Shown here: positions 1,955-59,000 of the stretch, in pieces
How positions within the stretch are numbered: the stretch's first letter is position 1
How the letters are laid out: every line of letters begins with the position of its first letter
NCBI GenBank assembly: GCA_025452255.1
Contig: CP104974.1
Coordinates: 1,737,001-1,801,000, forward strand
DNA: 64,000 nt
Direction: 5' to 3'
Origin: Devosia sp. A8/3-2
GTDB taxonomy: Bacteria > Pseudomonadota > Alphaproteobacteria > Rhizobiales > Devosiaceae
Notes under the pieces: generated by a model
Told to the model about the DNA's origin: nothing
Database searches by the model: none
Seen by the model: the letters and a program-made list of their open reading frames with translations, nothing else
Translations under genes and position numbers: made by a program

Positions 1955-3207
1955 ATGTCAGAACATTCGACTTACGTTCCAGGAAATGCCGCCGAAAAGT
2001 GGCTCGACGAGCGCCTGCCCGTCGTCAGGTTTGCCAAAGAGCACCTGATGGATTTCCCCACGCCGAAGAACCTCAATTACTGGTGGACCTTCGGGGCTAT
2101 TCTGGTGATGTGCCTTGGCGTGCAGATCGTCACCGGCATTATCCTGGCCATGCATTATACGCCCAATGTGGCGCTGGCCTTTGACTCGGTCGAGCATATC
2201 CGCCGTGACGTCAATGGCGGCCGCATCATCCAGAGCCGTCCACTCGGTGGGCGCTTCGATGTTCTTCGTGGCCCTCTATATTCACATTTTCCGCGGCATG
2301 TTCTTCGGTTCCTACAAGGCGCCGCGCGAAATCCTGTGGATCCCGGGCGTCGTCATCTTCATCCTGACCATGGCCACGGCCTTCATGGGCTATGTGCTGC
2401 CACAGGGCCAGATGAGCTTCTGGGGCGCCACGGTCATCACCAATATCTTCTCGGCAATCCCGGTGGTTGGCGAGAGCCTGCTGCAGCTGCTGCGCGGTGG
2501 TTTTGCTGTGGGTAACCCGACGCTCAACCGCTTCTTCTCGCTGCATTACCTGCTGCCGTTCATCATTGCGGCGGTCGTGGTGCTGCATATCTGGGCGCTG
2601 CACGTGCCGGGCAACAACAACCCGATCGGCGTCGAGGTCAAGGACCAGCGCGATACCGTGCCCTTCCATCCGTATTATACGATGAAGGACGCGTTCGCGA
2701 TGGTGCTGTTCATGATCCCGTTCGCGTGGTTCGTGTTCTTCGCCCCCGATATCTCGGGTCACCCCGATAACTACATCATGGCCAACAGCCAGGTGACCCC
2801 GACCCATATCGTGCCCGAATGGTATCTGCTGCCCTTCTACACCATCCTGCGCGCCATCGACTTCAACGTGCTGTTCATCAACTCCCAGCTTGGCGGCGTG
2901 ATCGCCATGGGCCTGTCGATGCTGGCGCTGCTGGTCGTGCCGTGGCTGGATACCAGCAAGGTTCGTTCGGGCACATTCCGCCCGATGTTCAAGTGGTTCT
3001 ACGCCCTGTTCGTGCTCGATTTCATCGCCACGGCGTATCTCGGTGCGCAGGAGGCGGCCGAGCCTTATACGACGCTGGCCAAGGTCTGCACCGGCTACTA
3101 TTTCCTCCACTTCTTCGTCATCCTGCCCGTGTTGTCGCGCATCAGAAATCGCCAAACCGCTGCCGACCAGCATTTCCGAGAGCGTTCTCGGCAAGGCACA
3201 TTCGTGA
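1955..3207 (+). CDS. petB: Cytochrome b of the bc1 complex (two frame-breaking indels)
   Basis: Membrane subunit carrying haems bL and bH and the quinone sites. The N-terminus MSEHSTY, with the helix [19 protein letters not shown], reads in one frame to about 2237. An extra C moves the rest ([29 protein letters not shown], the PEWY Qo motif) into the next frame. Near 3144 a second extra base (ATCGAAA read as ATCAGAAA) hides the true C-terminus [20 protein letters not shown], which ends at TGA 3205-3207. Spacing to petA is 14 bases with a G-rich ribosome site. The apparent continuous reading into petC results from these indels and is not a cytochrome b/c1 fusion. Confidence 0.92.
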
Positions 3208-3224
3208 AAGGCGGGGCGGGTTCA

Positions 3225-4071
3225 ATGTTGACGTTCAAGACCATCATCGCTGCTGTCGCCATTGCCGTTGGCATGGCCGCAGCGCCGGCTTTCGCTGCCG
3301 AAGGCACTGCGCCGCCGGTGCACAAGGAAAGCTGGAGCTTTGCCGGAATTTTCGGCACCTATGACCAGAACCAGCTGCAGCGCGGCTTCCAGGTGTTCCA
3401 CGAAGTCTGCGCGAACTGCCACAGCGCAAGGCTGTTGGCGTTCCGCAATCTGTCTGAAGAAGGCGGGCCGGGCTTCACCGAAGGCCGAGTCAAGGCGCTG
3501 GCGCTCGAATATGAAGTGGCCGATCCGACTGCCGAAGGTGGTGTTCGTCCGGCCGTTGCGGCCGACCGCTGGCCCTCGCCTTTCGCGACCGATCAGGACG
3601 CACGCGACGCCAATGGCGGCGTCGTGCCGCCCGATTTCTCGGTGCTGGCCAAGGCCCGCGGCATCAAGGACGCGTTCCCACGGTGGATCACCAATTACTT
3701 CACCGGCTATTCCGAAGGCGGCCCGGATTATATCCATGCGCTGCTGAACGGCTATCACGACGAAGCGCCCGAAGGGTTCAGAGCTGCCCGAGGGCAAGTT
3801 CTATAACGACTACTTCCCCGGCCATGCCATCGGCATGGGCCCGCCGCTGCAGGACGAGCTGGTGGCCTATGAAGCTGCCGAAGGCCGGGAGCCGGTGCCG
3901 ATGACTGTCGAGCAATATTCGCACGACGTCGCCGCCTTCATGATGTGGCTGGCCGAGCCGGGCCCGGTCTCCCGCAAGGAGACGGGTTTCAAGGTGCTGC
4001 TGTTCCTCGTGGCCTTTGCCGGCCTGATGTATGCCACCAAGCGCAAGCTGTGGCAGGGCATCGAGCACTAA
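3225..4071 (+). CDS. petC: Cytochrome c1 (one frame-breaking indel)
   Basis: Periplasmic haem c subunit of the bc1 complex, anchored by a C-terminal helix. It has a signal peptide (about residues 1-24, ending AAAPAFA), haem-binding CANCH near residue 64, and an axial-Met region [10 protein letters not shown]. The C-terminal membrane segment [18 protein letters not shown] precedes the stop. Near 3781 TTCGAG appears as TTCAGAG, so the end ([20 protein letters not shown] onward) is in a different frame from the start. It follows petB by 17 bases, and a strong terminator lies 24 bases after the stop. Confidence 0.92.
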
Positions 4072-4094
4072 GCTCATCTCTATACAACTTCATC

Positions 4095-4125
4095 AAAGGG
4101 CTCCCATTGGGGCCCTTTGTTTTTG
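4095..4125 (+). terminator. Rho-independent terminator of petABC
   Basis: AAAGGGC / GCCCTTT stem with a short loop followed by a T-rich tract, 24 bases after the petC stop. Confidence 0.85.
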
Positions 4126-4215
4126 TCGTGGTCACATTGGCCTTAGGCCCCTTGCCAAGAGCGCGCCGGGCCGCAATATGGTAATAACAGCCAAATCAAT
4201 CGCGAGGCCGCCGAC

Positions 4216-4410
4216 ATGTCCGCAGTTCGCATCGCCGTGACCGTTGTCAGCGCCGCTATCACCGTCAGCCGCCACCCCATGGTGCGCGCCGGTGTGCTTG
4301 CGGTTGTCAACAATCCCAAGGCGCGCGAAACGGCCATCGGGGTCACCCGCACCGCCGCCTATAATGCGGGCGTGATTGCGCGCCACATTGTGGGCCGCCG
4401 CGCTCCCTGA
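4216..4410 (+). CDS. Small hypothetical protein, 64 aa
   Basis: Short open frame between the petABC terminator and apt, preceded by GCGAGG 11 bases before the ATG. The product is hydrophobic in its first third (VRIAVTVVSAAITVSRHP) and basic at the C-terminus, and could be a small membrane or DNA/RNA-associated protein. I do not recognise a family. It lies 36 bases upstream of apt on the same strand, so co-transcription is possible. Codon use matches its neighbours. Confidence 0.55.
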   Translation: MSAVRIAVTVVSAAITVSRHPMVRAGVLAVVNNPKARETAIGVTRTAAYNAGVIARHIVGRRAP

Positions 4411-4446
4411 TTTTTCCAAAACCAGTATCCAATTTGCAGGATTGCG

Positions 4447-4980
4447 ATGACGCTCGACCTCAAGGCCCTTGTGCGCACGATTCCGGACTATCCCAAGAAG
4501 GGCATCCTGTTTCGCGACATCACTACGCTGATCGAGCATCCCGAGGGTTTCAAGGCCAGCATTGAGCAGATTGCCGAGGCGCATCGCCATCTGGGCGTCA
4601 CCCATGTGGCCGGTATCGAAGCGCGCGGCTTCATCTTCGGGGCCGGAGTGGCGATCGCCACGGGCGTCGGCTTCATTCCCGTGCGCAAGAAGGGCAAGCT
4701 GCCCGGCGAGACTATCGGGCAGAATTACGCGCTCGAATATGGCGTCGACACGATCGAGATCCATGCCGATGTGCTGGATGCCGGCGACACGGTGCTGCTG
4801 GTTGATGACCTGATCGCCACGGGCGGCACGGCAATCGCAGCGGTAGGCCTGCTCCGCCGCACCGGCGCGACCATAGCCAATGCGGCCTTCGTTATCGATC
4901 TGCCGGATCTCGGTGGTGCAGCAAAGCTCGAGGCCGAAGGCGTGGAAGTGTCAACGCTGATGGCGTTTCAGGGGCATTAA
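4447..4980 (+). CDS. apt: Adenine phosphoribosyltransferase
   Basis: Purine salvage enzyme: adenine + PRPP to AMP + PPi, cytosolic. The product is 177 aa, typical of the family. Seen: the N-terminal IPDYPKKGILFRDITTL, a flexible-loop region RKKGKLPGETI near residue 80, and the PRPP-binding motif VLLVDDLIATGGTA near residue 118. Reading frame intact, with no sign of the indels affecting neighbours. It starts 36 bases after the small upstream frame. Confidence 0.96.
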   Translation: MTLDLKALVRTIPDYPKKGILFRDITTLIEHPEGFKASIEQIAEAHRHLGVTHVAGIEARGFIFGAGVAIATGVGFIPVRKKGKLPGETIGQNYALEYGVDTIEIHADVLDAGDTVLLVDDLIATGGTAIAAVGLLRRTGATIANAAFVIDLPDLGGAAKLEAEGVEVSTLMAFQGH

Positions 4981-5083
4981 GTCCTCGCCCGCGCTGATCC
5001 TCGGCAACCCCACAATGACACTGTAGTTGGGGAGCATTGATAGTCCCTCGGGCCATGGGTGCCACGCGGTCGTGCCTCCGCCC

Positions 5084-5482
5084 CTACCAGCTGTTCCGCC
5101 CATCCATCTTCTCGATAACCACGCTCGACAGATCCGGGCCATCCACCAGCCGCAGATTGACCGCATAGGTCCGTGCGGTGGGGAAGCTGTTGGGATCGCC
5201 ATTCTTGGGCGTACCGTCGCTATTGTACATTGAGGCCCAGTCGGGGGAATCGCCCCGAGTCTGGATGCCGCAATTGCTGCAGAAATGGTGCATGTTCATG
5301 CCACTGGCCGAATAGGTCTTCTCGGCCGTAGCCGAGAGCAACTTCAGCTCACCCTCGCTGAAATAGCCCCAGACCGCGCCGGTCTTGCCGCAGAAGCTGC
5401 AATTGCACTCCTTGGCGGAGGTGGGCAGATGGGGCAGTTCGATCCTAGTCTGGCCGCAATGGCAGGTGGCGATGAGGGACAT
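5084..5482 (-). CDS. GFA family protein (glutathione-dependent formaldehyde-activating-like)
   Basis: 132 aa zinc-binding protein of the GFA/CENP-V fold. Zinc ligands are visible: CHCGQTR near residue 7, CNCSFCGKTGA near residue 28, and FCSNCGIQTRGD near residue 70. Family members bind glutathione adducts, but the substrate is generally unproven. The start at 5482 is chosen so the protein begins MSLIATCHCG; 13 codons upstream are also open. It stands alone between apt and the VOC gene, convergent to apt. Reading frame intact. Confidence 0.88.
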   Translation of the reverse strand: MSLIATCHCGQTRIELPHLPTSAKECNCSFCGKTGAVWGYFSEGELKLLSATAEKTYSASGMNMHHFCSNCGIQTRGDSPDWASMYNSDGTPKNGDPNSFPTARTYAVNLRLVDGPDLSSVVIEKMDGRNSW

Positions 5483-5547
5483 GATGTGGCTCCAAGCTCT
5501 GATAGACGCCAGCATGGCCATGGGCGTGACAGGCCGTGTCAGCAGCG

Positions 5548-5939
5548 TTATGCCGCCATGGCCCGGCGTTGGTCGACGAGGCAGAACTGATTGCCCTCGG
5601 GGTCGCGCATCACGGTATAGGTGGGCAACACCCGCACAATTTCGGCTCCTGCGGCCTTGAGCCGTTCCACCTCGCCGCCGCGATCGCCCACCGCAATGTC
5701 GAAATGCACGCGATTATTGTCATAGCGCCGGCCTTCCACATTCTGGAAGCAGATGCTGGGCCCCGGGCCATCGACCATCACGGTGGGGTCGGTTTCCGGC
5801 GTCAGGCCCAGCGCGGCCAGCCGGGCGATCTCGGCCTCGTCATAGTCCCGCACGGCATAGCCGTCGAGCATCTCGGCCCAGAACTGGGCCAGTTTGGCCG
5901 GCTTGTCGCAGTCGAATACGATTTCTGGATGGCACCCAT
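5548..5939 (-). CDS. VOC-family (glyoxalase-like) protein, one indel near the start
   Basis: Vicinal-oxygen-chelate fold protein of about 130 aa. Seen: IVFDCDKPAKLAQFWAEMLDGY at the N-terminus and HFDIAVGD, then MRDPEGNQFCLV near the C-terminus, the usual VOC beta-strand with metal-ligand Glu/His positions. The ATG at 5939 has AGGAG 7-8 bases upstream but is out of frame with the body. One lost C near 5931 (ATCCCAGAA read as ATCCAGAA) restores MGAIPEIVFD. Substrate unknown; such proteins range from lactoylglutathione lyase-like to antibiotic-binding. Confidence 0.8.
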
Positions 5940-6001
5940 GCCTTGACTCCTGTGGTCGTTTCTTTTTCGTTAAACCGGAATTAAGGCAAGACTGGGCAAA
6001 C

Positions 6002-6035
6002 GAAAAGCCCGGCGCAACGGGATGCACCGGGCCTC
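6002..6035 (-). terminator. Terminator downstream of the terC gene
   Basis: On the minus strand, GCCCGGTGC and GCGCCGGGC pair around an 8-base loop and are followed by TTTTCG, 36 bases after the terC stop. Confidence 0.75.
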
Positions 6036-6070
6036 GTGAAGCGTATTCGTCAGCGCTGGAGCGTTACGGC

Positions 6071-7085
6071 TCAGAGCTGACCGGTCTCGGGCCGCTCCTC
6101 GGCGCTCACGTCAGGCTCGTTGCGCGTCTTGTAGAGCGAGAAGATAATCCCGCCCGCCAGAATGCTGATGGTGACCAGCAGCGAGAGCAGCGTATCGATA
6201 TGGATATGCAGCGGCACGAGGAAGATCTTGATGCCGACCAGCACCGGGATAATCGCGAGCGACACCTGCAGATAGCGGAAGCGGTTCATCGTGGCGGCCG
6301 GGGCGAAGTAGAGCGAGCGCAGGCCCAGAATAGCGAAGATATTGGACGTGTAGACGATGAACGTGTCCTGCGTCACCGCGAACACGGCGGGCACGGAGTC
6401 GACGGCAAAGACCAGATCGACGACTTCCACCATGATCAGCGCCACGGCCAGCGGGGTCAGCCGAGTGACGATCTTGCCGGTCTTGGGATCGGGCTGCTTG
6501 ACCGTAAAGTTGCGGCCATGCAGCTGCTTGGTCACCTGGAAGCGCTTCGAGATAAACTGGAAAACCTTGTTTTCTTCCGGGTTAGGCTCTTCGTCCTTGT
6601 GGGTGAACATGCGGATGCCGGTGAACACCGGGAAGGCGCCAAAGCCGAACAGGATCCAGTCAGAATTCGTTGACCAGAGCGGCGCCCGGGCCAATCAGGA
6701 TGGCGCGGAACAGGATGACGCCCAGAATGCCCCAGAACAGCACGCGGTGCTGGTAGATGCGGGGAATGGCCAGGAAGCCGAAAATCGTGGCGATGACGAA
6801 CATATTGTCCATCGCCGGGCTCTGTTCGAGCAGGTAGCCGGTGTAGAATTCAAGACCGGCCTCGGCCCCGCGCTGCCACCACACCCAGCCACCAAAGGCC
6901 ACGGCAATCAGCACATAGAAGCCATAAAGCGTCAGGCTCTCCTTGGCGCCGATCTCGTGCTCGTCCTTGTGCAGGACGCCGAGGTCGAAGACCAGCAGAG
7001 CGATCACGAGCGTTATGAACGCGATCCAGAAATAAAGGGGAGTACCTAGAAAATCACCCGAAAGGGCGGCAAGAAGCGATTCCAT
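6071..7085 (-). CDS. TerC family integral membrane protein (one indel)
   Basis: Polytopic membrane protein of the TerC/Alx family, implicated in metal (Mn) export and tellurite resistance. About 337 aa. Seen: EQSPAMDNMFVIATIF near residue 90 and VEVVDLVFAVDSVPAVFAVTQD later, the paired acidic TerC motifs, plus several hydrophobic helices. Near 6664 an extra base (GAATTCGACTGG read with TTCTGAC) creates a false TGA and splits the gene; VNEF then continues DWILFGFGAF. Start at 7085 with GGAGATGG upstream; an in-frame ATG at 7127 is an alternative. Confidence 0.9.
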
Positions 7086-7487
7086 CGCCGGACCATCTCC
7101 ATGAGAAAATTGGAGCAGCTCCGACATCGCGAGAGCATCATCACTCTCGCCAGAGGGGCCCGGCGCCGCACCCTAATTATGCGCAGGCAGCGGACGGAAT
7201 TCAAGCCCCTGTCTGTTTGAGGGTGATTTTGGCGCCTCGATCTAGCCCGCCGTCATGCCACCTGCGGTGAGAATGACATGGTGGGTTGGGCGGTAGGCGT
7301 GGAGACTAAACCAGCACTGCTCTCCCTCGGGCTTGACCCGAGGGCCACTCGTCGCTTGTGCCGGGTGAGGGAGGCCCTCGGGTCGAGCCCGAGGGAGAAC
7401 GGTGGGGTGGGGGATTGGGCGTTCCGTAGAACTGGATCCCGGCCCGCGCCGGGAATGACACCGAGGGTGAGCTACGAGAAGGGGGCC
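7086..7487. other. Intergenic region without a gene
   Basis: About 400 bases between terC and the small secreted-protein gene. It holds the palindromic repeat at 7322-7397 and, just after it, a GGATCCCGGCCCGCGCCGGGAATGAC-like tail (7432-7460) typical of intergenic repeats in rhizobia. The first 150 bases should hold the terC promoter. No coding frame here has support. Confidence 0.7.
7322..7397. repeat. Intergenic palindromic (REP-like) element
   Basis: Two 25-base arms (7322-7346 and 7373-7397) are inverted copies with one mismatch. Each arm is itself nearly self-complementary around CTTGA/TCGAG. The 26-base spacer has no feature. Confidence 0.85.
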
Positions 7488-7865
7488 TTACTGCGGCGTA
7501 CACAGCATGACGATGGCGTCGCTGGTTTCGAGCTGCATGGCCACGCCATGATTGGAGTCGGGGATGACACGGCCGGCCTGTACATTGCGCGCGGCGCGCA
7601 GAGGGCCATCGCTGAAGCCAACTCCGTCCTGATAGCCCATGATCGCCCCTGTACCCGAGGATGGGTCACCAAAAGTGGTCGAGGCGAAGCCATAGACCGA
7701 GCCATAAATGGTCAGGATGCCGGCGCGGGTGGCATTGGTATCCCGGCATGACCAATTGCCCTGAACCTGCTGGGCAAAGCTGGGCGTGGCAGCAAGGGCG
7801 AGAAGACTTGCGATGAGGGCGATTCTGAAGCATGGCCGGCAGAGTGCCGGGGCACGCTGTCGCAT
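7488..7865 (-). CDS. Small exported hypothetical protein
   Basis: 125 aa with a clear signal peptide (hydrophobic FRIALIASLLALAATPSFA, cleavage after about residue 31). The mature part is rich in Gly/Ser/Thr with two cysteines (NWSCRD and MLCTPQ) that could form a disulfide. Function not recognised. The ATG directly abuts the TGA of the upstream MaoC gene, so it is probably the third gene of that operon. Reading frame intact. Confidence 0.75.
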   Translation of the reverse strand: MRQRAPALCRPCFRIALIASLLALAATPSFAQQVQGNWSCRDTNATRAGILTIYGSVYGFASTTFGDPSSGTGAIMGYQDGVGFSDGPLRAARNVQAGRVIPDSNHGVAMQLETSDAIVMLCTPQ

Positions 7866-8423
7866 TCAAGAGCGCTGCTTGAGCAATCCGCCGATCAACG
7901 GCAATCTGGTGAGCGCGAGCAACACTCGCTGGCCGGCCGGCGCGCGATAGTCGCGCAATTTGGAAAAACCGACCACTTCGGCCGTATAGACCAGCTCGCC
8001 CCGCTGATTGGTGGCGGTGATGCGGTTGAACAACAGACCCCAGCCGAGAATCGAGTTGGAAGCGCGTTTGTCGGTGACGACCAGCTCATAGGTCACCGTA
8101 TCGCCCGGCCGCACCGGCACCTTGAAGTCCATGGAATTGACGCCCGGCGAGGGCCCGGAAATGCCCGGCTCTTCGCCCAGTCCGCGCAGGCGTTCTTCCT
8201 CCGCCTCAAGCGCATCGACCATGCGGCGATGGCCGACGCTGACCGTGTGCCAGCCGCTTGCCACCAGTCCGCCGAAATGGCTGTACTTGGCCGCTTCGGG
8301 GTCGAGATGGAAATATTGCGGATCATAGAGCGCGGCAAAGCGCATGATCTCATCGGCCGTGAAGGTATGGCTGCCGAGCGGAAAAACCTCGTCCAGCGCG
8401 ATATTTTCGAACCAGCGGGTCAT
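7866..8423 (-). CDS. MaoC family dehydratase (hot-dog fold)
   Basis: 185 aa hot-dog enzyme related to (R)-enoyl-CoA hydratases. Seen: FAALYDPQYFHLDPEAA near residue 30, the MaoC hydratase motif with catalytic Asp and His, then HFGGLVASGWHT. It overlaps the upstream MaoC gene by four bases (ATGA). Paired MaoC genes often form a heterodimeric or two-copy hydratase acting on acyl-CoA. Reading frame intact. The CoA substrate cannot be told from sequence. Confidence 0.88.
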   Translation of the reverse strand: MTRWFENIALDEVFPLGSHTFTADEIMRFAALYDPQYFHLDPEAAKYSHFGGLVASGWHTVSVGHRRMVDALEAEEERLRGLGEEPGISGPSPGVNSMDFKVPVRPGDTVTYELVVTDKRASNSILGWGLLFNRITATNQRGELVYTAEVVGFSKLRDYRAPAGQRVLLALTRLPLIGGLLKQRS

Positions 8424-8897
8424 GCCATGACTTCCGCATCGCGCGTCTCGACCAGATTGGCCAGCCGCATGGTCAACACCGGCTTGCCCTGCTGGTTGCG
8501 CACGTCAAAATCGAGCGTGACAATGCCCCATTGCGGATGGCTGGCAGAGCGGCGCAATTCGGCAATCTTGACCGTGCCGCCAATTGTGTCATCGACCATG
8601 ACCGGATTTTTCCATTTGAGATTGGTGAAACCCAGCCCGCCGGCCGAGGCGATCTGGCTCAGAAAGCTGTCGACCAGCATGCGCAGGCTCAGCGCCCCGG
8701 TCTGCCAGCCGCTCGACGCCAACCCGCCGAGCAAAGACGCCTTGGCGGCCTTTTCGTCGAGGTGAAAGGGCAGGGGATCAAACTCGCGCGAAAGCGGTGA
8801 TCATCTCATGAGTCACCTTGGTATGGCCCAGATCGATGCTTTCGCCCACGGCAAGATCCTCGAAATGGCGGCGATCGCGGGTTACAGGATTGGTCAT
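8420..8897 (-). CDS. MaoC family dehydratase (first of pair, one indel)
   Basis: About 159 aa. The N-terminus MTNPVTRDRRHFEDLAVGES starts at 8897, with AGGGAAG upstream. The hydratase motif should read FAREFDPLPFHLDEKAA, but near 8790 the frame breaks and a false TGA appears; a lost GC in a GCGCGC run (or one gained base) explains it. The rest, LGGLASSGWQTGALSLRML onward, is intact and ends overlapping the next MaoC gene. Role as for its neighbour: hydration/dehydration of an acyl-CoA thioester. Confidence 0.85.
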
Positions 8898-8960
8898 CGA
8901 ACTTCCCTATACGTCAACGCCTTTTGCACCCTTTTCCAGACTGGGGCAAGCGCTGGCCCC

Positions 8961-9832
8961 TCAGATGCCGGTCGGCAAGCGGCGGCTGGCGCGGTAGTCG
9001 AGCGGGGTCATGCCGCGCAGCCGGCGAAAGGATTTCGCCGTGTAATTGGCGTCACTGAAGCCGGTCAGCGCGGCGATGGCGCCGATTGTCATGTCGGTGG
9101 CGACCAGCAGGCGCTCGATCCGCTCGATGCGCCGCTCCTGCACGAAAGTGGAGGGCGCCAGCCCGGTGGCCGCGGTGAACTGGCGGACAAAGTGGCTCCG
9201 GCTCATCTCGGCCAAGGTGGCGAGCCGGTCGACATTGAGCGCGCGGTTGAGATTAGTGTCGATATAGGCGACCACCCGCGCAATGGCGGGCGGCAGGGTG
9301 AAGTCGGGCGCCGCGTCAGTGCCGAAGACCCCGTCATGCAGGGCGGCCATGGCGCCATAGGCGGCGCTGGACGCCTCGCCCGGCGAAATGCCCGGTTTGT
9401 CGATCAGCGTGTGGCAGGCCAGCGCCAAGCGGTCGATAATGCTGGGCGGCAGGGTGACGACGGGTCCGGCAGCATCGATGATCTCGCGGGCGAGGCGTAG
9501 CGCTTCGCGCCCGTTCAACACCATCCAGAAATATTCCCAATGCCCGCCCCGCTCCAGCCAGTAGCGATGGGCATGGGGCAGGCTGAGCACCATGGTTTGC
9601 CCCGGCACCAGCCGGTGCCGCACGCCGGCGAAATCGAGCCGGCCTTCCCCCACAATGGTGTGCTGGATGACGAGAAAGGGCAGCTGCCGCGCTGCAATCC
9701 GTCCCGGGAATAGACTTCGTTGAGCCGCTGCTCATAGCCGGCGCTGATCGCCATGCAGTGCAGCGGCACCGCACCTTTGGGGAGCGTTAATAGGCGGACC
9801 TTGTGGCCGTAGTCGATGAGCTGGCTGAGCAC
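8961..9832 (-). CDS. AraC family transcriptional regulator (one indel)
   Basis: N-terminal cupin-like sensor (LLTLPKGAVPLHCMAISAG; LPHAHRYWLERGGHWEYFWMVLNG) and a C-terminal double helix-turn-helix (LNVDRLATLAEMSRSHFVRQF; MTIGAIAALTGFSDANYTAKSFRRLRG). Near 9690 a lost C (GGCCAG read as GGCAG) breaks the frame. A GTG at 9832 is my best start; an ATG at 9904 is also open. It is divergent from the GH4 gene across about 105 bases and probably controls it in response to a galactoside. Confidence 0.82.
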
Positions 9833-9937
9833 AAAATTACCCGTAATGGCACAAGCTTTCTCTAGCACCAATGCGGCGTTCAACGCTAGCAATGTGCTAA
9901 CCAATTCGCAGTGTGTGCTGCGTCCCGGAGGACCCTC

Positions 9938-11392: not shown

Positions 11393-11418
11393 ACTTCAGA
11401 CCATCGACATCTCTCCCG

Positions 11419-11560: not shown

Positions 11561-11582
11561 GGAAGCAGGGGAGGTCGAAGCG

Positions 11583-41230: not shown

Positions 41231-41236
41231 GCCCGG

Positions 41237-49501: not shown

Positions 49502-49510
49502 TTGCAGGTG

Positions 49511-49782: not shown

Positions 49783-51069
49783 ATGCCTGAATTGACGAGA
49801 CGGAATTTTCTTGCGGCGAGTTCGGCATTGACGCTGGCGGGCCTGATTGGCGGGGGCGCTGCTTTTGCCCGTGAGAGCCGGTTGCGGCTGAGCTGGTGGG
49901 GCAATAATGACCGGGCCGAAAGAACCAACAAGGTCATCGACCTGTTCAAGGCGGCCAATGCCGGCGTGGAAATCGAAGGCCAGACCCTGCCGGGCGGGGG
50001 CGACTATTGGACCCGGCTCGCCACACAGACTGCGGGCGGCAATCCGCCCGACGTGATCCAGATGGATTACCGCTATATCTTTGAATATGCCGGCCGCGGC
50101 GTGCTGTTGCCGCTCGATGATCTGATGACCTCGACGGTCAATCTGTCCAACTGGCCGGAAGAGCGCATCGAGGTTGGCCGGGTCGATGGCAAGGTTTATG
50201 GCGTCAGCCTTGGCGCCAATACCGGCGCGGTTATTCTCAACCTCACGGCTCGGGAAGAAGCTGATATCGAGCCGCCAACAATTGGCACGACACGGGAGCA
50301 GTTTGCCGATCTGTGCGCACAGTTCAGCGCCAAGACTACGCGCACGGCGTTTTTCGGCACGCAGGACGCCAGCGGCCACGAGACCTCGTTCGAGACCTAT
50401 CTGCGCCAGCGCGGCAAGGCGCTGTATGCGGCCGATGGCAATCTTGGGTTCGACGAAACCGATGCCAAGGCCCGGCTTGACCTCTGGGTCGAGATGCGCA
50501 AATCCGGTGCTTGCGTGCCGGCGGAGGTGCAGGCCCTGTCGCAGGGCAATGTCGATACCAGCGTCGTCACCGTTGGCAAGGCGGCGACGGGCATTGCCCA
50601 GTCCAACCAATTGGTCAGCTACCAGAAAGCGAATACCGACAAGCTGGGCATGACCAGCATTCCGGTGATCGAAGGGGGCCAGCTCGGGCAATATCTCAAG
50701 CCCTCAATGTATTTCAGCTTGAGTTCGCAGACCAAAGACCCGGAGCTGGCGGGGAAGTTCCTCGACTTCTTCATCAACAATCCCGAGGCCATGCAGGTTC
50801 TGGGTGTCGAGCGCAGTGCGCCTGAGGCGCCGGAAACGCGGCAGGCCATTCTGCCGTCCCCGGATGAATCCTCGCAGGCGGCGCTGACTTATCTCGACAG
50901 CATCGCTTCGGTGATCGGCACATTGCCACCGGCTCCGCCGCAAGGCGCTGGCGAGGGTACTACGGTGCTGATGAGCGTGGCTGAGGAAGTGGCGTTCGAA
51001 GCCAAATCGACCGAGCAGGGCGCAGCCGATCTGGTTGCCGGCATGGCGCAAGCCGTCGGTCGTGGCTAA
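49783..51069 (+). CDS. ABC transporter sugar-binding protein, Tat-exported
   Basis: 428 aa extracellular solute-binding protein family 1. Twin-arginine signal TRRNFLAASSALTLAGLIGGGAAFA. Seen: LRLSWWGNNDRAERTNKVIDLFKAANAGVEIEGQTLPGGGDYWTRLATQTAGGNPPDVIQMDYRYI, the family strand-helix start, and YMSL-like KPSMYFSLSSQTKDPELAGKFLDFFINNPEAMQVLG. No permease or ATPase gene is adjacent; the following genes are an oxidoreductase and a GntR regulator, so its membrane partners must be encoded elsewhere. Reading frame intact. Confidence 0.9.
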   Translation: MPELTRRNFLAASSALTLAGLIGGGAAFARESRLRLSWWGNNDRAERTNKVIDLFKAANAGVEIEGQTLPGGGDYWTRLATQTAGGNPPDVIQMDYRYIFEYAGRGVLLPLDDLMTSTVNLSNWPEERIEVGRVDGKVYGVSLGANTGAVILNLTAREEADIEPPTIGTTREQFADLCAQFSAKTTRTAFFGTQDASGHETSFETYLRQRGKALYAADGNLGFDETDAKARLDLWVEMRKSGACVPAEVQALSQGNVDTSVVTVGKAATGIAQSNQLVSYQKANTDKLGMTSIPVIEGGQLGQYLKPSMYFSLSSQTKDPELAGKFLDFFINNPEAMQVLGVERSAPEAPETRQAILPSPDESSQAALTYLDSIASVIGTLPPAPPQGAGEGTTVLMSVAEEVAFEAKSTEQGAADLVAGMAQAVGRG

Positions 51070-51126
51070 AAGCCATTGGTGTGCCCGGCTCACGGGCTAG
51101 GCACACCAAGACAATTGGAATTTGAT

Positions 51127-52200
51127 ATGACAGCCAAGCTCAAGGTCGGCATCGTCGGATGCGGCGCGGGTCGCACTCATCTGGTCGAGGGCTATGTGCC
51201 CAATGCCGAATTGTTCGATGTGGTCACGCTGTGCGACCTCAATACCGAGCGGCTTGCCGCGGTAGGCGATGAATTCGGCATTGCGGGGCGGACGACCTCG
51301 TTCGAGGCGCTGCTGGCTATGCCCGAGCTTGATGTCATCGATATCTGCACGCCACCGGGCCTGCATCTGGAACAGAGTTTGGCGACGCTGGCCGCGGGCA
51401 AGCACGTGGTGTGTGAAAAGCCGCTGGTGGGCTCGCTGGCCGAGATCGATGTGATCATGGCGGCCGAAGCCCGTTCGGCGGGCCGGCTGATGCCGGTGTT
51501 TCAATATCGCTATGGCAATGGGGTGGCCAAGGCCAAGGCGGTGATCGATGCGGGGTTGGCGGGCAAGGCCTATGCCGGGACAGTCGAGACCTTTTGGCGG
51601 CGCGGGCCCGATTATTATGCTGTGCCGTGGCGGGGCAAATGGAAGACCGAACTGGGCGGGGTGCTGATGGCCCATGCCATCCATCCGCATGACATGATGA
51701 CCTATCTGATGGGGCCGGTGGATCGGGTGTTTGGCCGGGTCGATACCCGCGTCAACGCCATTGAGGTCGAGGATTGCCTATCGGCCTCGCTGCGCATGCA
51801 GAATGGTGCGCTGGTGTCGCTAACGGCGACTTTGGGTTCGGCGGACCAGCTGACCCGCATCCGTCTGGCATTCGAGAATTTGACCATTGAAAGTGATCAC
51901 GCGCCGTATCGGCCGGGCGAGGCGGATTGGCAGATCATTGCCAAGACGCCGCAGATTGCCGAGCGGATCGACGCTGTGCTGGCCGATTGGCAATTCGTGC
52001 CCTCGCGCCACACCACTCAATTGCGGCTGTTCCATCAGGCGATCACCACCGGGGGTCCCTTGCCGGTAACGACTGCCGATGCAAGGCAGGCGCTCGAGTT
52101 GGTGACGGCGATTTATCATTCCTCGGAAACCGGTACCGATATTGTGCTGCCGCTGGATGAGGGCCATCCCAAATACAAGGGCTGGGCGCCGGCGCCATAG
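51127..52200 (+). CDS. Gfo/Idh/MocA family oxidoreductase
   Basis: 357 aa NAD(P)-dependent sugar or inositol dehydrogenase. Seen: LKVGIVGCGAGRTHLVEGY (Rossmann), DVIDICTPPGLHLEQSLATLAAGKHVVCEKPL (family EKP motif with catalytic Lys), FQYRYGNGVAKAK, GGVLMAHAIHPHDMMTYLMG (His motif), then GALVSLTATLGSADQ. Located 57 bases after the sugar-binding protein gene, so it probably acts on the imported sugar. Substrate not assignable. Reading frame intact. Confidence 0.9.
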   Translation: MTAKLKVGIVGCGAGRTHLVEGYVPNAELFDVVTLCDLNTERLAAVGDEFGIAGRTTSFEALLAMPELDVIDICTPPGLHLEQSLATLAAGKHVVCEKPLVGSLAEIDVIMAAEARSAGRLMPVFQYRYGNGVAKAKAVIDAGLAGKAYAGTVETFWRRGPDYYAVPWRGKWKTELGGVLMAHAIHPHDMMTYLMGPVDRVFGRVDTRVNAIEVEDCLSASLRMQNGALVSLTATLGSADQLTRIRLAFENLTIESDHAPYRPGEADWQIIAKTPQIAERIDAVLADWQFVPSRHTTQLRLFHQAITTGGPLPVTTADARQALELVTAIYHSSETGTDIVLPLDEGHPKYKGWAPAP

Positions 52201-52256
52201 GGCCTGCCACGGCAGCGGAAACTTGCTATACCCAAGCTTGGTGTGGAGAAATTGTT

Positions 52257-52966
52257 ATGCAGGATCACGGTGGGGCGCGGCTGGAACGGCTTGATCCAAA
52301 GCTCAGCCTGACCCTGCGCGATCATGTGCACAAGGCGCTGCGCATGGCTATCTTGTCCGGCCGGTTTGCGCCGCAGGAAAAGCTCAATGAGCGGCAATTG
52401 GCCGAGGAGCTGGGCGTCAGCACCACCCCGCTCAAGGAAGCGCTGCGGCAATTGGAGACAGAAGGGCTGATCTCGACGCTGCCGCGGCGGGGCATCGTAG
52501 TGCTCTATAGCCGGACCCGGGCGGAAGAGATGATCCTGGCGCGGGCGGCGCTCGAATCGATGATTGCCCATCTGGCGGCGCGGCGGATCGACCGAGCGGC
52601 CGGCGCCGGGCTGCACGCGACGATCGCGGCAATGACCGAGGCCAGCGCTGCGGGGATGCCGGCAGGCTGATCGAGCTCAATGAAGTGTTCCACGAACAGA
52701 TCCACACCGCCTCGCAATGCGTCTATCTCGCCCGATTGATCGAGCGGCAGCGCTTTTATGACGAAGGCACGCGCCGCATCATTCACTCGGACCCGGACGA
52801 ACGCGCCTGCGCGCTGGCCGAACACAAGCTGATTGCCGAGACGATAGCGGCGGGACAGGTGGAGGCCGCCGAACGCGCCATGCGCGACCACGTCGTGCGC
52901 TCAGGCGAGCATTATCTCGGGCTGGTGTTTAGCGGTCGCGCCAGCGCTGTGGTGGCGGCAGACTGA
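52257..52966 (+). CDS. GntR family regulator, FadR subgroup (one indel)
   Basis: About 237 aa. N-terminal winged helix LTLRDHVHKALRMAILSGRFAPQEKLNERQLAEELGVSTTPLKEALRQLETEGLISTLPRRGIVV; C-terminal FCD ligand domain with ALESMIAHLAARRID, EVFHEQIHTASQCVYL, and SDPDERACALAEHKLIAETIAAGQVEAAERAMRDHV (metal-ligand His/Asp positions). A lost base near 52652 splits the two domains (AGDAGRLIELNEVFHEQ). Follows the oxidoreductase by 56 bases and may control this small sugar cluster. Confidence 0.87.
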
Positions 52967-52969
52967 AAC

Positions 52970-53047
52970 TGGTGACCCCGGCGGGATTCTGAACCCACGA
53001 CCCCGGGATTAGGAATCCTGTGCTCTATCCAGCTGAGCTACGGGACC
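52970..53047 (-). tRNA. tRNA-Arg (CCT), T-loop carries one extra base
   Basis: Acceptor GGTCCCG pairs with CGGGGTC, D-arm GCTC/GAGC, anticodon loop TTCCTAA gives CCT (codon AGG), CCA encoded. The T-arm should read GTGGG-TTCGAAT-CCCGC but shows TTCAGAAT, an extra A in the near-universal TTCGA loop at about 52990. The same change breaks many protein genes here. Confidence 0.92.
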
Positions 53048-53162
53048 AGCCACGCGCAACTTAGACAAAGAGGATAAACGAATAAAGTCATTTCGCTGCA
53101 TCTTTCCAAGGTGCGGCATGCATAGAGCTGTCTTGCGGACGTCTCGCGTTTGAGGCAAACCC

Positions 53163-53181
53163 GGGGGCAGCTTTTGCCCCC
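53163..53181 (+). promoter_or_regulatory. Hairpin directly before the argJ ribosome site
   Basis: GGGGGCA-GCTTT-TGCCCCC, a perfect 7-base stem, ends one base before AAGAGGA and 16 bases before the ATG. It could influence translation or mRNA stability, or be a terminator for an upstream read-through. Confidence 0.5.
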
Positions 53182-53196
53182 AAGAGGACAGCCCAG

Positions 53197-54426
53197 ATGG
53201 CCCATCCCGTTTCCCCGCTCGCTCCCAAATCCTATCCGGACCTGCCCGCGATTGCCGGGGTGCGTTTCACGACGGCGGAAGCCGGGATCAAGTACAAGAA
53301 CCGCACCGATGTGCTGCTGATGGCGTTTGACGCCGGCACCACGGCAGCCGGCGTGCTGACGCGCTCGAAATGTTCGTCCGCAGCGGTGGATTGGTGCAAG
53401 GCCAATCTGCCCGGCGGGGTGGCCGGGGCTTGGTGGTCAATTCGGGCAATGCCAATGCCTTTACCGGCACCAAGGGGCAAAAAGCGTCGAGCTGACGGCC
53501 GATTATGCCGCCAAGGCACTGGGCTGCGCGCCCTCCGAGGTTTTTCTGGCGTCCACCGGGGTGATCGGGGAGCCGCTTGATGCGTCCAAGTTTGCCGGTG
53601 TGCTGGATGATATGGCGGGGCGGGCGGGCGCCGGGTCGTGGATGGAGCCGGCCAAGGCGATCATGACGACCGATACGTTCCCCAAGCTGTCCGGCGCAAT
53701 TTTCGAAATCGACGGGGTCGAGGTCAAGATCAATGGCATTGCCAAGGGCAGCGGCATGATCGCGCCTGACATGGCGACCATGCTGAGCTTTGTGGTTACC
53801 GATATGCCGATTGCGGCGCCGGTGCTGCAGGCGCTGCTGGCGCGGCATGTGCAGACCAGCTTTAACGCCATTACGGTGGATAGCGACACCTCCACGTCGG
53901 ATACGCTGCTGGCTTTTGCCACCGGCAAGGCTGACGCCGAGGCGATCGCCAGCATTGATGATCCGCGCGCGGAGACTTTTGGCGCTGCGCTGGCCGATGT
54001 GCTGTTCGATCTGGCGATCCGGTGGTGCGGGACGGGGAGGGGGCGACCAAGCAGGTCTCCATCCATGTTGAGGGCGCAACCTCAGATCAGAGCGCGTTCC
54101 GCATTGCCAAGTCGATTGCCGATTCACCGCTGGTCAAGACCGCCATTGCCGGCGAGGACGCCAATTGGGGGCGCGTGGTGATGGCGGTGGGCAAGGCGGG
54201 CGAGCCGGCCGATCGCGACAAGCTGGCCATTCGCTTTGGCGATCTGCTGGTGGCCAAGGATGGCGAGCGGGCGGCTGTGTATGACGAGGCCGCGACCAGT
54301 GCCTATATGAAGGGCGAGGATCTCGAGCTGACCGTCAGCCCGGGGCTGGGTGAGGGCAAGGCCAGCGTTTATACCTGCGACCTGACGCATGGCTATATCA
54401 CCATCAATGGCGATTATCGGAGCTGA
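53197..54426 (+). CDS. argJ: Bifunctional glutamate N-acetyltransferase/N-acetylglutamate synthase (three indels)
   Basis: About 410 aa arginine-biosynthesis enzyme that recycles the acetyl group between ornithine and glutamate; autocleaved into two chains. Seen: [42 protein letters not shown], cleavage site [11 protein letters not shown] with the nucleophilic Thr, [35 protein letters not shown], and [20 protein letters not shown]. Shifts: lost C near 53427, lost A in an A-run near 53482, and lost A near 54022 (CCAGG read as CCGG). Start at 53197 after AAGAGGA. Confidence 0.94.
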
Positions 54427-54427
54427 T

Positions 54428-55174
54428 ATGACCTTGCCCGATATTGCCACCTTCGAGCGGGCCGGGCTTGCGGCTCGGCCGGGGATCGAAGTCGAATGGG
54501 ACGGCGCTCGGGTACGCCGCGCCGCTGGCGGCTATACCAAGCGCGCCAATTCGCTGCAGTGCTTTGATGTGAGCGACGGCGGCAATGCCGAGGCGCGGCT
54601 GGACGGGGCAGTGGAGTGGTTCACCACCCGCGGACTGCCACCGGTCGTTCGCACGACACCGCTGGCGAGCGCGGCGCTCAATGCGGCTCTGGACGCCGGG
54701 GGCTGGGCGACGATCGATCACAGCCATCTCTATGCCATGCCGCTGGGTGAAAATGAGCCTGATCCTGAGGGACGGCTATTTGAGCTGCTCGATCCGGAGT
54801 TTCTCTCGGCCCAGCAAGGGCTGCGGGGCTACAGCGATGAGAATGTGGCGCGCCTGCGGGCGCTGCTGGTGGTCATGGCCGTGCCCGCGACGGGCGTGGT
54901 GGTCTATCGCGATGGCGAAGCGGCGGCCACTGGGCTAATGGCGGTGGGCGAGGGCATTGTCGTCACCGGCAATGTGATTACCGACACGACGCGGCGGCGG
55001 CAGGGGTTGGCTGCGGCCATGATGCGCACCGGGCTGGCCCGGGCGAAGGAGCAGGGCGCCACGGTCGCGGCGCTCAATGTGGAGGCGGGCAATGTCGCCG
55101 CCAAGGCGCTCTATGGGTCGCTCGGCTACACGTACCAGTATGACTACACCTACCGGGTTCCAGGGCGCGTATGA
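54428..55174 (+). CDS. GNAT family N-acetyltransferase
   Basis: 248 aa. C-terminal GNAT domain: VVYRDGEAAATGLMAVGEGIVVTGNVITDTTRRRQGLAAAMMRTGLARAKEQGATVAALNVEAGNVAAKALYGSLGYTYQYDY, with the acetyl-CoA P-loop RRRQGLA and the N-x-AAKALYxSLGY end. The N-terminal half (residues 1-130) resembles the two-domain GNATs found next to argJ/mutT in rhizobia. ATG at 54428, one base after the argJ stop, and its own stop overlaps mutT (ATGA), so all three are one operon. Substrate unknown. Reading frame intact. Confidence 0.88.
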   Translation: MTLPDIATFERAGLAARPGIEVEWDGARVRRAAGGYTKRANSLQCFDVSDGGNAEARLDGAVEWFTTRGLPPVVRTTPLASAALNAALDAGGWATIDHSHLYAMPLGENEPDPEGRLFELLDPEFLSAQQGLRGYSDENVARLRALLVVMAVPATGVVVYRDGEAAATGLMAVGEGIVVTGNVITDTTRRRQGLAAAMMRTGLARAKEQGATVAALNVEAGNVAAKALYGSLGYTYQYDYTYRVPGRV

Positions 55175-55574
55175 GCGAGCACATCCTTCTCGTCGTCGCC
55201 TGCGCGCTGGTGGACGCCGACCGTCGTGTGCTGATTGCGCAGCGGCCTGAGGGTAAATCCATGGCAGGACTATGGGAATTTCCCGGTGGCAAGGTGGAGC
55301 AGGGGAGAGCCCCGAGGCGGCGCTGATCCGCGAGCTGGAGGAAGAGCTGGGTATCTCGACCAAGACGGCGTGCCTCGCCCCCATATCTTTCGCCAGTCAT
55401 TCTTACGAGACTTTTCACCTGTTAATGCCACTTTATGTCTGCCGGAAATGGCAGGGACAGCCGCAGGCCAAGGAACATTCCGCCCTCAAATGGGTGCGCC
55501 CCCGGGCCCTGCGTGACTACCCGATGCCGCCGGCCGATGAACCACTGATCGCGGCGCTCTGCGATCTGTTGTAG
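55171..55574 (+). CDS. mutT: 8-oxo-dGTP diphosphatase MutT (one indel)
   Basis: About 134 aa Nudix hydrolase that cleanses oxidised nucleotides. Seen: ALVDADRRVLIAQRPEGKSMAGLWEFPGGKVEQGE and the Nudix box with ALIRELEEELGI (RExxEExG). Near 55305 a G is missing from a run (GGGGGAG read as GGGGAG), separating the start from the Nudix box. C-terminal LPL/W region HSALKWVRPRALRDYPMPPADEPLIAAL matches MutT. Overlaps the GNAT stop. Confidence 0.9.
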
Positions 55575-55594
55575 TCAGATGTTCGGGGGCAGGC

Positions 55595-55789
55595 ATGACG
55601 AAGGCGTTGTTGCATTTTCTCCGGGACGAGACCGGCGCCACAGCGATTGAATACGGCCTGCTCGCCGGGCTCATTGTGGTCGCGCTGATGATTTCCTTTG
55701 CCCTGCTGGGCGACAGCCTCACGGCCTTGTTCGGCGCCGGGGCGGGCAGCGCGGCAGCGATTATCGGCGAGGCTGCCAACAGCATTTGA
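55595..55789 (+). CDS. Flp-type IVb pilin
   Basis: 64 aa. FLRDETGATAIEYGLLAGLIVVALMISFALLGDSLTALFG has the class IVb prepilin pattern: a short leader, Glu at +5 of the processed form in GATAIEYGLLAGL, and one hydrophobic helix. It is 20 bases after mutT. No cpa/tad assembly genes are near, so it would depend on a distant tad locus or be an orphan copy. Reading frame intact. Confidence 0.88.
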   Translation: MTKALLHFLRDETGATAIEYGLLAGLIVVALMISFALLGDSLTALFGAGAGSAAAIIGEAANSI

Positions 55790-55889
55790 CGCTACCGCCC
55801 AAGAGGCGGGTGCCCGAGCCCATCCTGCGCCCGAGCGGATTGAGGGGTCACATGGCGGCGAGCTAGACCTCTTGGTCCGCGCCCGAGCT

Positions 55890-57370
55890 CTATTGCAGCA
55901 CGACGACCTTGTATTTCTGTCCCGGCTGGACTGGATCGCCTGGGTAGAGATCGTTGATGATATAGAACAGTTCCGCGCCGCGGCTGAGGCCGGCCATTTG
56001 GCGGGCCGAGCTATCGGCGGTGTCGCCGGACTTGGCGGTAACGACGCGAATGGCGACCTTGCGGATGGCATTGAGGTCGCTGCTTTCGGCGCGGCGGAAG
56101 CTGGTGAGCGTGGCTTCGGCACCGGCCGAGAAGCGGGCGCTGTCGGCCTTGGCAGCAAAGATGAAGCGGTAGACCCGGCCATCGAGCCGCATGACCGAGA
56201 CGCGGAAGAACCATTGGTCGGTCTGGGCGACGCCTGAGGCCATCTCGATGCCGTTGACGGTTCGGGTGGTGACGCTGTCAGTCTTGAGACCTGCAATCCA
56301 GCCTGATTTGAGATAGTCCGCGAGGCCGATATTGGCCTGCACATCGGCGCTGTCGAAACGCACGGCCTCGCCATCACCAGCCACGCCCACGACGGCGCTC
56401 TGCGAATTCTGCAGCGTATAGCCATCGGGCACGGTGAAGGTGAACTTGCTGGCCGAATGAATGAATTTGCGGCCGACGATCGAGCCTCGGGCGGGGCTGT
56501 CGCCGAAGGTGAGGCCGGTAATGGAATCGAGATAGCCGGCGCGATCGGTTTCCCCGACTCGGGCCCGGCCGAACATGGTGCGGGCGGTGTCGAGCGCCTT
56601 CTGGATGCGGGCGGGCGTCGAGGGATGGGAGGACAAGAACCCGGCATTATTGCCGTTCTGGCCAGCCGAGAAGGTGGCGAAGCGGCTCATGACGCCCGAG
56701 AAGCGCAGCGGCCTGCGGATCGTAGCCGGCCTTGCCCGCGAACTTGATGCCTTCGTGGTCGGCTTCCAGTTCCTGCTGCTGGCCGAAAGAGGCCATGGAT
56801 TGGCGTGTGCGGTTGGCGGTGGCGTCGGTCGAGGTGTCCCCGCCCAAAACGCCGGTGATGACGCGGTCAACGATGGCGGTGGTCCGGGTGCGATCGGTGC
56901 GCGCGGGCATGGCGCAGGGTGACGTGGGCGATTTCGTGCGCCAGCACGGCGGCCAATCTGCTGGTATCGGAGGCGAGCGCGAGGATGCCGCGCGTTACAT
57001 AGATATAGCCGCCGGGCAGAGCAAAGGCGTTGACTTCGGATGTATCGAGAATGGTGACCTGAAACTGGGCATTGGGCTGGTCAGCAGCGGCGAGCAGGCG
57101 CCCGACAATGCGCGCCACCATGATTTCGGCCGCGCGATCGGAATAGACCCCGCCATAGGCGGCAATAATGCAGGGGTGTTCACGGCGGCCGATGACCACG
57201 TCTTCGGGATCGGTGCCCTCGGGAACCACGGTCGGCGCCGGCATGTCACCAGTTTGGCTGACCGCGATCTGGGAGCCGGTAAAGCTGGTGCAGGCCGACA
57301 GAGCCAGCAGCGATACCGCCAGCAAGCCATTGCGCAAACCCTTGTTGATGATGTGCTTGGTGCCCGTCAT
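55890..57370 (-). CDS. M48 family metalloprotease, BepA-like lipoprotein (two indels)
   Basis: About 494 aa. Lipobox LSAC near residue 26. Catalytic HExxH as AAVLAHEIAHVTLRHARA near residue 140, third ligand Glu in QQQELEADHEGIKFAGKAGYDP. Two further C-terminal regions (GRKFIHSASKFTFTVPDGYTLQNS and FYIINDLYPGDPVQPGQKYKVVVLQ, a LysM-like end) are typical of the exported Zn-protease family. Shifts near 56915 and 56700, both explained by a lost GC in GCGCGC-type runs. ATG at 57370 overlaps the nuclease stop. Confidence 0.88.
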
Positions 57371-58204
57371 CGTGCTGCCAGAACCTCGATCTGTTCGGGA
57401 TGAGTAACTTCGATGCGTGGGCCATCCTGATCGTCCACCCAGCCTCTGATGCGAACCAGCGCCCCTTCTAGGGCTGATGGATCAATGCCGTCTGCTGCAA
57501 AAGCCTGAGCGCAGACGCTTCGATCACCGCGGTGAAATCTTCTTTCCAGAACCGGCCAAAGTTCAAGTAGACCCGCCCGCCGGATTGATCGGCAAGCAGG
57601 ACACGTCCCTCGACAAGTTCGTAATGGCCCTGCCGATCCAGAAGATCAGCCGGCCGATCCGCCGCACGAGTGCTGTAATAGGGATCGGCCCAGATGCCAA
57701 GCCCGGCCAAACGCGCACGCCCCTCTGCCGCGAAGAGCAGATCGAGGCATTTGCGGTTATCGGGGAAAGAATAGACGCGGGCCGAGCCCTGCGCGACCAT
57801 ATATTGCTGCGCCCAGATCTCGCCGTCGGGACCATCGATGAAGACATGGGCGAGCGCCCGCTCGTAGCGGTCGATCTCTTCCCCGCCATAGCCCAGACGC
57901 ACGGGCTTGTTGAGGGCAATGCTTTCAAGCGCGGTTTTGGCCTCTGGCGCCAGCGGCCGGTCTCAAAACCATCGCGGCCCAGCGGCAATTTGGGGGCTTG
58001 CGTGCCGATCATGCGCACGACCATGCCATTGTCGAGCACGACGGTGTCGCCATCGGTGACCCGGGTCACAATGCCGCCTGGAACCATGCGCAAATCCTCG
58101 CATGCAAGTGCTGCCGCCGAAACAGACGACAGCGCCGCTATAGCGGCGAGGCTGGCGAGACTAGTCTTAAGCAAATCGGACCCCGGCAGGATTTCGTTCA
58201 CCAT
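57367..58204 (-). CDS. Thermonuclease (SNase-like) family protein, exported (two indels)
   Basis: About 280 aa. Signal peptide TSLASLAAIAALSSVSAAALA. SNase fold: GIVTRVTDGDTVVLDNGMVVRMIGTQAPKLP (DGD motif), NKPVRLGYGGEEIDRYERALAHVF (catalytic Arg/Glu region), AQQYMVAQGSARVYSFPDNRKCLDLLFAAEGRARLAGLGIW. An extra C-terminal domain, SGGRVYLNFGRFWKEDFTAVIEASALRLL...RGWVDDQDGPRIEVTHPEQIEVL, looks OB-like. Shifts: lost C near 57960 and lost base near 57492. The stop overlaps the M48 start (ATGA). Confidence 0.85.
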
Positions 58205-58300
58205 GCACCTAAATAGGCCAAAAAATCATTACCGCTTGATAACTTTAGCGGCGGTGTGGCCGAAAGGTCGCGCAGTTGTGACATTGGCATGGGGCCGGTT

Positions 58301-59000
58301 CTATTCACCCTTGAACAGTTTTTTGAGCATGGCGGCCATGGGGCCGGATTCTGGGAAGGGCTGCCTGTGGCTTGGCCGGGCGCGCTCGGCGGATATGGCT
58401 TTGGGCTTTGGGCGCTGCCTTGGCCGGGGCCGGTTCAGCGGCGGTGGCCAGCGCCAGCTTGTTCATGAAGCCGTTGTCGTCGCCCTTGAGCACGAGCCCG
58501 ATATGCTTGCCGATGGCGTCGAGCAGGGGATCGAGCCAGACTTGGTCGGCCTTGGCAAAATCGCCCAGCACGTGGTGGGTGACGAATTCCTTGCCGGGAT
58601 GGCCGATGCCGAGGCGGATGCGCTTGTAGTCGAGCCCGATCTGGGGATCGATTGACCGCAGGCCATTATGGCCACCATTGCCGCCGCCGACCTTGACCCG
58701 CACCTTGGCTGGGGCGAGGTCGAGTTCGTCATAGAGCACGATGATGTCGGCAGGGGCGATCTTATAGAATTGGGCGACCTGCTGCACGCTATCGCCGGAG
58801 CGGTTCATGAAGGTCTGCGGCTTGAGCAGCATGACCTTTTCGCCATCGATACTGGCTTCGGACAGGAGAGCGGAGTGCTTGGTCTTCCAGGGGCCGGCAT
58901 TGTGCTCGCGCGCGACCGCATCAATGGCCATAAAGCCAATATTGTGCCGGTTGCCGGAATATTGGTTGCCCGGATTGCCCGTGCCCACGAGCAGCTTCAT
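58301..59000 (-). CDS. pth: Peptidyl-tRNA hydrolase (one indel at C-terminus)
   Basis: About 233 aa essential enzyme that frees tRNA from drop-off peptidyl-tRNA. Seen: LLVGTGNPGNQYSGNRHNIGFMAID (catalytic His), LLKPQTFMNRSGDSVQQVAQFYKI, IIVLYDELDLAPAKVRVKVGGGNGGHNGLRSI (catalytic Asp), RIRLGIGHPG. Ala/Pro/Lys-rich tail typical of rhizobia. Near 58357 CCCGAATCC is read as CCCAGAATCC; the true end is GPMAAMLKKLFKGE at 58301. It follows the L25 gene with 71 bases between. Confidence 0.94.

Follow-up and report, generated by a model that had tools for sequence, protein, structure and literature searches.

The genome assembly of Devosia sp. A8/3-2 carries a recurrent extra A between the C and the G of CGAA and CGAG (together CGAR, R being a purine), and these additional letters are very probably consensus errors of a long-read assembly left uncorrected by accurate reads. 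The platform, we infer, was most likely Oxford Nanopore. The window, that is, the whole stretch of 64,000 nucleotides analysed here, corresponds to positions 1737001-1801000 of contig 1 (C1) of this genome (G000; 4,552,693 bases in two contigs, completeness 84.01). The argument rests on a sharp local sequence rule, the absence of any sign that selection purges the gains from genes, altered tRNAs, a conserved gene in pieces, and companion errors in CCWGG sites and homopolymers.

Gains and losses are given for G000 relative to G006, a relative of the same genus (two contigs, completeness 99), and C[A]G denotes an extra A between C and G. An 864 kb stretch of G000 (C1:1617001-2481000, comprising the window and sequence beyond it) was compared with 800 kb of G006. 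Alignments of at most 800 columns, of at most 82% identity, or overlapping others were discarded, leaving 639,387 aligned bases, of which 586,678 lie outside the window. The two genomes share 90.3% identity over a long alignment and 88% over a 3.8 kb probe. A gap was considered clean when at least 10 of 12 bases matched, ungapped, on both flanks; out of 649 one-base gains and 703 one-base losses, this strict filter retained 373 and 412, respectively, or 1.23 clean one-base insertions and deletions (indels) per kb.

Almost half of the clean gains (160/373) sit between C and G, and the 129 that precede GA all fall in CGAA or CGAG. As the rule was derived from the window, its enrichment was tested outside it, where CGAR shows 113 gains against 13,979 unaffected strand-sites and other CG sites show 29 against 115,487 (odds ratio 32, p ~4e-81). 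Inside the window the corresponding gains number 16 and 2. The preceding base modulates the rate at which CGAA fails: T 63/1,833, G 31/1,761, A 7/1,008 and C 8/2,336. The context first described, [T/G/C]CGA[A/G], is therefore right by counts, but by rate a preceding A is not lower than C. TCGAG fails at 10 of 2,644 sites. Downstream, a C four bases after the G (+4) favours the gain (62 of the 129 observed, 29.3 expected), as does a C at +8 (85 observed, 57.7 expected). Ranking the six-letter contexts with at least two gains places CGAATC at the top (17/98), followed by CGAAAC (20/390) and CGAACC (13/355); TCGAATC, at 7/26, has one of the highest rates for contexts with more than 20 sites. A strict shared motif, bipartite forms included, was sought through position pairs, among which the C at +4 and +8 stand out and none is strict. 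Stems resembling a T arm were also considered as a cause and rejected: complementarity between the arms shows small excesses at a few offsets (0.38 versus 0.25, 0.41 versus 0.31, 0.32 versus 0.23) and no consistent stem.

The original prediction listed 22 gains at CGAR in the window. A net one-base gain relative to G006 is found within 20 bases of 21 of these, and at 20 of the 21 one of the strands, read by eye, shows CGAA or CGAG, the remaining one being the C[A]GC at 29590. Site 40364 has no gain; instead, single bases are lost at two points within CCWGG sites of G006. Some of the earlier coordinates were off by 5 to 16 bases (17748 becomes 17732, 21130 becomes 21139 and 20684 becomes 20679). 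The sites at 3144, 14210, 17832, 29590 and 58357 are weaker and fail the strict filter, the alignment gap at 58357 being placed a few bases away from the site; at 3144, 6664, 29590 and 58357, G006 has no plain CG at the gap. Three gains, at 6073 and at two C[A]GG sites (44586 and 49506), were missing from the earlier list. Of the 62 clean one-base indels that pass the strict filter in the window, 18 are C[A]G gains, and 16 of those are C[A]GA. The individual features are as follows (supported by the strict filter, or by the G006 alignment where so marked):

3143, plus strand: one-base gain in a C[A]GAA context with weak flanks (G006 alignment)
3780, plus strand: one-base gain, C[A]GAG (G006 alignment and strict filter)
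6073, plus strand: one-base gain, C[A]GAG, new relative to the earlier list
6661..6662, plus strand: one-base gain, C[A]GAA, placement moved by an adjoining mismatch (G006 alignment and strict filter)
11029, minus strand: one-base gain, C[A]GAA
14208, minus strand: one-base gain, C[A]GAA, weak flanks (G006 alignment)
14474, minus strand: one-base gain, C[A]GAA
17732, minus strand: one-base gain, C[A]GAA
17829, minus strand: one-base gain, C[A]GAG, weak flanks (G006 alignment)
18484, minus strand: one-base gain, C[A]GAA
20679, minus strand: one-base gain, C[A]GAA
21139, plus strand: one-base gain, C[A]GAA
21314, plus strand: one-base gain, C[A]GAG
22662, plus strand: one-base gain, C[A]GAA
29589, plus strand: one-base gain outside CGAR (C[A]GC), weak flanks (G006 alignment)
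36917, plus strand: one-base gain, C[A]GAA
37348, minus strand: one-base gain, C[A]GAA
40362..40374, no strand: two one-base losses in G006 CCWGG sites (earlier site 40364; G006 alignment)
42735, plus strand: one-base gain, C[A]GAA
44586, plus strand: one-base gain, C[A]GG in ATTGC[A]GG
46990, minus strand: one-base gain, C[A]GAG
47770, minus strand: one-base gain, C[A]GAA
49506, plus strand: one-base gain, C[A]GG in ATTGC[A]GG
52970..53047, minus strand: tRNA-Arg(CCT), T loop of 8 nt through the gain at 52990, against 7 nt in G006 (G006 alignment)
58352, minus strand: probable one-base gain, C[A]GAA, gap aligned a few bases off (G006 alignment)
1..64000, gains in the window: 16 C[A]GA, 2 other C[A]G, 6 CCWGG, 1 homopolymer, 7 other
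1..64000, losses in the window: 10 CCWGG, 8 homopolymer, 12 other

The ATTGC[A]GG sequence of 44586 and 49506 also occurs elsewhere in G000 and forms a small second context for gains, with five sites in the first 464 kb.

The distribution of the indels over genes separates errors from mutations, since selection purges true frame-breaking indels from genes. Taking as a gene any open frame of at least 100 codons in G006 (coding share 0.911 of the aligned bases), genes hold 125 of the 129 C[A]GA gains, so that there is no depletion. Losses in CCWGG (106/116) and gains in CCWGG (41/46) behave in the same way, and the other C[A]G gains (25/31) are too few to judge. Depletion in genes is seen for homopolymer losses (84/128), homopolymer gains (25/37), other losses (136/168) and other gains (100/130), as would be expected of classes that include some true indels as well. 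At least one clean one-base indel is present in 332 of the 521 fully aligned genes, and the completeness of 84 for G000 fits this figure. The conserved gene tgt, the single TGT locus of G000 (family PF01702), is split into four pieces.

The tRNAs tell the same story. An enlarged T loop is found in five of 33 distinct tRNA sequences of G000, a set drawn from 30 of the 44 tRNA matches of the genome and those in the 864 kb stretch, and all five fit C[A]GAA on one strand. The tRNAs Arg-CCT, Pro-CGG and Thr-TGT (labelled by script) carry an additional A in this loop, while Val-TAC and Gly-CCC have an extra T, which, judged by eye, is the same error on the other strand. The gain reported at 52990 in tRNA-Arg is thus borne out, and the G006 counterparts of the Arg and Thr tRNAs, the two that were compared, have normal T loops. 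The lack of depletion in genes, the altered tRNAs and the widespread indels in genes together imply that the extra letters are consensus errors, in agreement with the systematic error originally proposed.

The gains are accompanied by two further classes absent from that proposal, one-base losses and gains in CCWGG and losses in homopolymers. Losses affect 116 of 2,353 CCWGG sites, against 15/2,237 for CCSGG, 7/969 for GGWCC and 2/3,430 for GCWGC; gains affect 44/2,353 CCWGG and 2/2,237 CCSGG sites (the CCWGG gain count is 66, 46 or 44 depending on the definition). Homopolymers of at least three bases account for 128 of the 412 one-base losses, which are partly true indels given their depletion in genes, and 33 of 605 AAAAA runs are affected. 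A gene for a Dcm-like C5 methylase is present at C2:147933-151316 of G000 (C2 being contig 2). Two open pieces in different frames, 1001-1944 and 54-809, both on the minus strand, match NF007772 (DNA cytosine methylase) and TIGR00675 (dcm); both matches are partial and below the NF007772 cut-off, and the first piece only passes that of TIGR00675. In the consensus, this methylase gene is thus disrupted as well. A gene for a Vsr mismatch endonuclease (TIGR00632, above cut-off) adjoins it. The Dcm-like enzyme probably methylates CCWGG. Three hallmarks of nanopore consensus errors are found: indels concentrated in CCWGG where Dcm is present, homopolymers that are too short, and disregard of coding function.

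Errors of this kind have been described before. In the available text of a Klebsiella pneumoniae benchmark (PMC6591954), about 70% of the nanopore consensus errors obtained with default models fall at Dcm sites, and most of the remainder in homopolymers. G000 shares with that case the CCWGG indels, the Dcm-like gene and the homopolymer errors alongside, whereas the CGAR gains form a class apart, set in a different context and lacking a strict motif. The available part of the Kastor report ties gene-fragmenting insertion errors to non-homopolymer 4-mers that vary between sequencing runs (PMC12007338). Insertions linked to k-mers and independent of homopolymers are common to both; however, the k-mers named there are CCCA, TCCA and ACCA, and those of G000 are CGAA and CGAG. 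Modification-mediated nanopore errors (PMC10687267, PMC11610573) likewise resemble the G000 gains in their short context, differences between lineages and restriction to part of the sites, but the accessible portions of these two reports stress mismatches or two-base ambiguities and G000 gains a base.

A possible course of events can be outlined. At a few per cent of the sites, the signal of the C-G-A-purine step in the pore would be called C-A-G-A-purine by the majority of reads, and the consensus would retain that call. Methylated bases might make such failures more frequent at the motifs that they occupy, 5-methylcytosine in CCWGG through the Dcm-like enzyme and perhaps N6-methyladenine in GANTC through a CcrM-type enzyme. 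In the cell, the extra bases are very probably absent and the genes open. The simplest account of the CGAR class is a context weakness of the basecaller and the consensus, perhaps with a contribution from methylation. It would be an artefact of an already described kind, with one context class that is perhaps undescribed.

Several observations weigh against this interpretation. The rule is graded, and only the 63 TCGAA strand-sites given above are affected out of 1,833. The strand bias for which a test had been suggested is present, with 82 gains on the minus and 47 on the plus strand for 7,350 and 7,860 opportunities, respectively (p 0.0007); a strand-symmetric error would not produce this excess, and a consensus step that treats the strands unequally is one option. 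A control with third genomes used seven named loci and a cut of 78%, passed by four window and four G006 alignments, with three and four below it, and spanned 24776-31299 of the window, the same stretch in all four alignments, and about 2 kb of G006. For the window, 26 gains and 12 losses were counted over 25,941 summed bases, and for G006 1 gain and 3 losses over 8,245, with neither C[A]GA gains nor CCWGG losses on either side; as the window stretch holds no strict C[A]GA site, this control has no bearing on the CGAR gains. No second genome with the error was found by searching one T-arm pattern with the extra base in 385 genomes of the class, 75 of the genus and 398 of the phylum (the last with a slightly different pattern). 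This pattern, which probes one T arm only, matched 8, 3 and 6 genomes, respectively, and its backward control 5, 2 and 5, so that the matches are chance-like; inside a predicted tRNA it occurs in G000 only. Finally, none of the listed matches of a literature search on nanopore consensus insertion errors contains CGAA, and the available text of PMC8486125 names no CGAA insertion.

Among the alternatives, the one that survives best is a special case of the artefact itself, in which an unhandled base modification at or near CGAR causes the gain, so that the assembly is wrong and the chemical mark real. This is possible, if on the doubtful side. It draws on the excess at CGAATC, which contains GANTC, over CGAAAC and CGAACC, on the influence of the bases at +4 and +8, and on the methylase genes of G000. 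These comprise a CcrM-type gene (NF050803, E 3e-129 over its open part, below the whole-protein cut-off) and one further N6/N4 methylase gene at C1:3457354-3458172, the four relatives searched having one match each. However, the other GANTC contexts CGACTC (0/124), CGATTC (0/182) and CGAGTC (0/194) fail at none of 500 sites, and GANTC is absent from the site in 112 of the 129 C[A]GA gains. GANTC methylation may therefore raise the error at CGAR but is neither sufficient nor required. The lack of a strict shared motif also speaks against a modification, as do the lack of DndC matches (phosphorothioate DNA; TIGR03183) in both genomes and the single TGT locus, although a divergent DpdA (7-deazaguanine DNA) could escape PF01702. 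Methylated motifs, GANTC among those named, mostly caused no error according to the accessible part of another study (PMC12392509). The link to a modified base that had been envisaged is thus supported for the CCWGG class by the predicted Dcm-like gene and, for CGAR, only suggested by the CGAATC excess. A stronger version, in which the inserted A is the footprint of an uncovered base modification that recognises C-G-A-purine at partial occupancy, with C-adjacent GANTC methylation as one part of it, is unlikely.

Three further observations concern these genes and motifs. The second N6/N4 methylase gene lies beside a helicase-like frame (read by eye), and PF02384 matches are present on contig 2. 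GANTC is scarce, with 1,125 occurrences in the 864 kb, slightly more than one third of a rough composition-based estimate; such scarcity is frequent in CcrM-bearing bacteria.

Consensus error also has to be set against real change in the DNA. Mass pseudogene formation, or a mutator with an insertion bias specific to CGAR, would accommodate the sharp context and the strand bias, which could arise from a replication-linked process (GC skew is positive along the window, for which alone it was computed). It is nevertheless highly improbable in view of the undepleted gains and the 332 affected genes, the four pieces of tgt, the five tRNAs with enlarged T loops and the unrelated indels in CCWGG and homopolymers. 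The pattern of gene decay, with indels in dispensable genes only or depleted in genes, is not what the gains display, and the earlier argument that context-specific gains do not come from decay stands. Real but tolerated gains, through ribosome skipping (programmed frameshifting) or RNA editing, have the shared local sequence in their favour and nothing else; they are barely credible when gains fall on the gene's own strand (70) as well as on the opposite one (55), and in tRNAs, which have no reading frame. Equally far-fetched is a loss of bases in G006 with the window correct: an alignment of two genomes cannot by itself tell which side changed, but the genes are open in G006, its completeness is 99 against 84, and the normal T loop is that of G006 for both tRNAs compared. 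Real mutation, programmed frameshifting and loss in G006 are rejected on these points.

Among its other genes, the window encodes on the minus strand (24834-29238) an RND-type pump frame of the AcrB family with an HlyD-type partner. The pump frame covers positions 177-1019 only of the 1021 of the profile, and its start is thus missing or out of frame. The AcrB-like protein shows up to 90% identity to a D. naphthalenivorans protein.

If the extra bases are consensus errors, as is very likely, the consequences reach beyond the window. G000 is a GTDB species representative, yet nearly two thirds of its fully aligned genes have a one-base indel, in most cases probably an artefact. Gene content, pseudogene counts, tRNA sets and completeness taken from this genome would mislead. 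The CGAR class represents a specific error that a polisher could learn from training, and from the CCWGG class a functional Dcm-like enzyme can be predicted in this organism.

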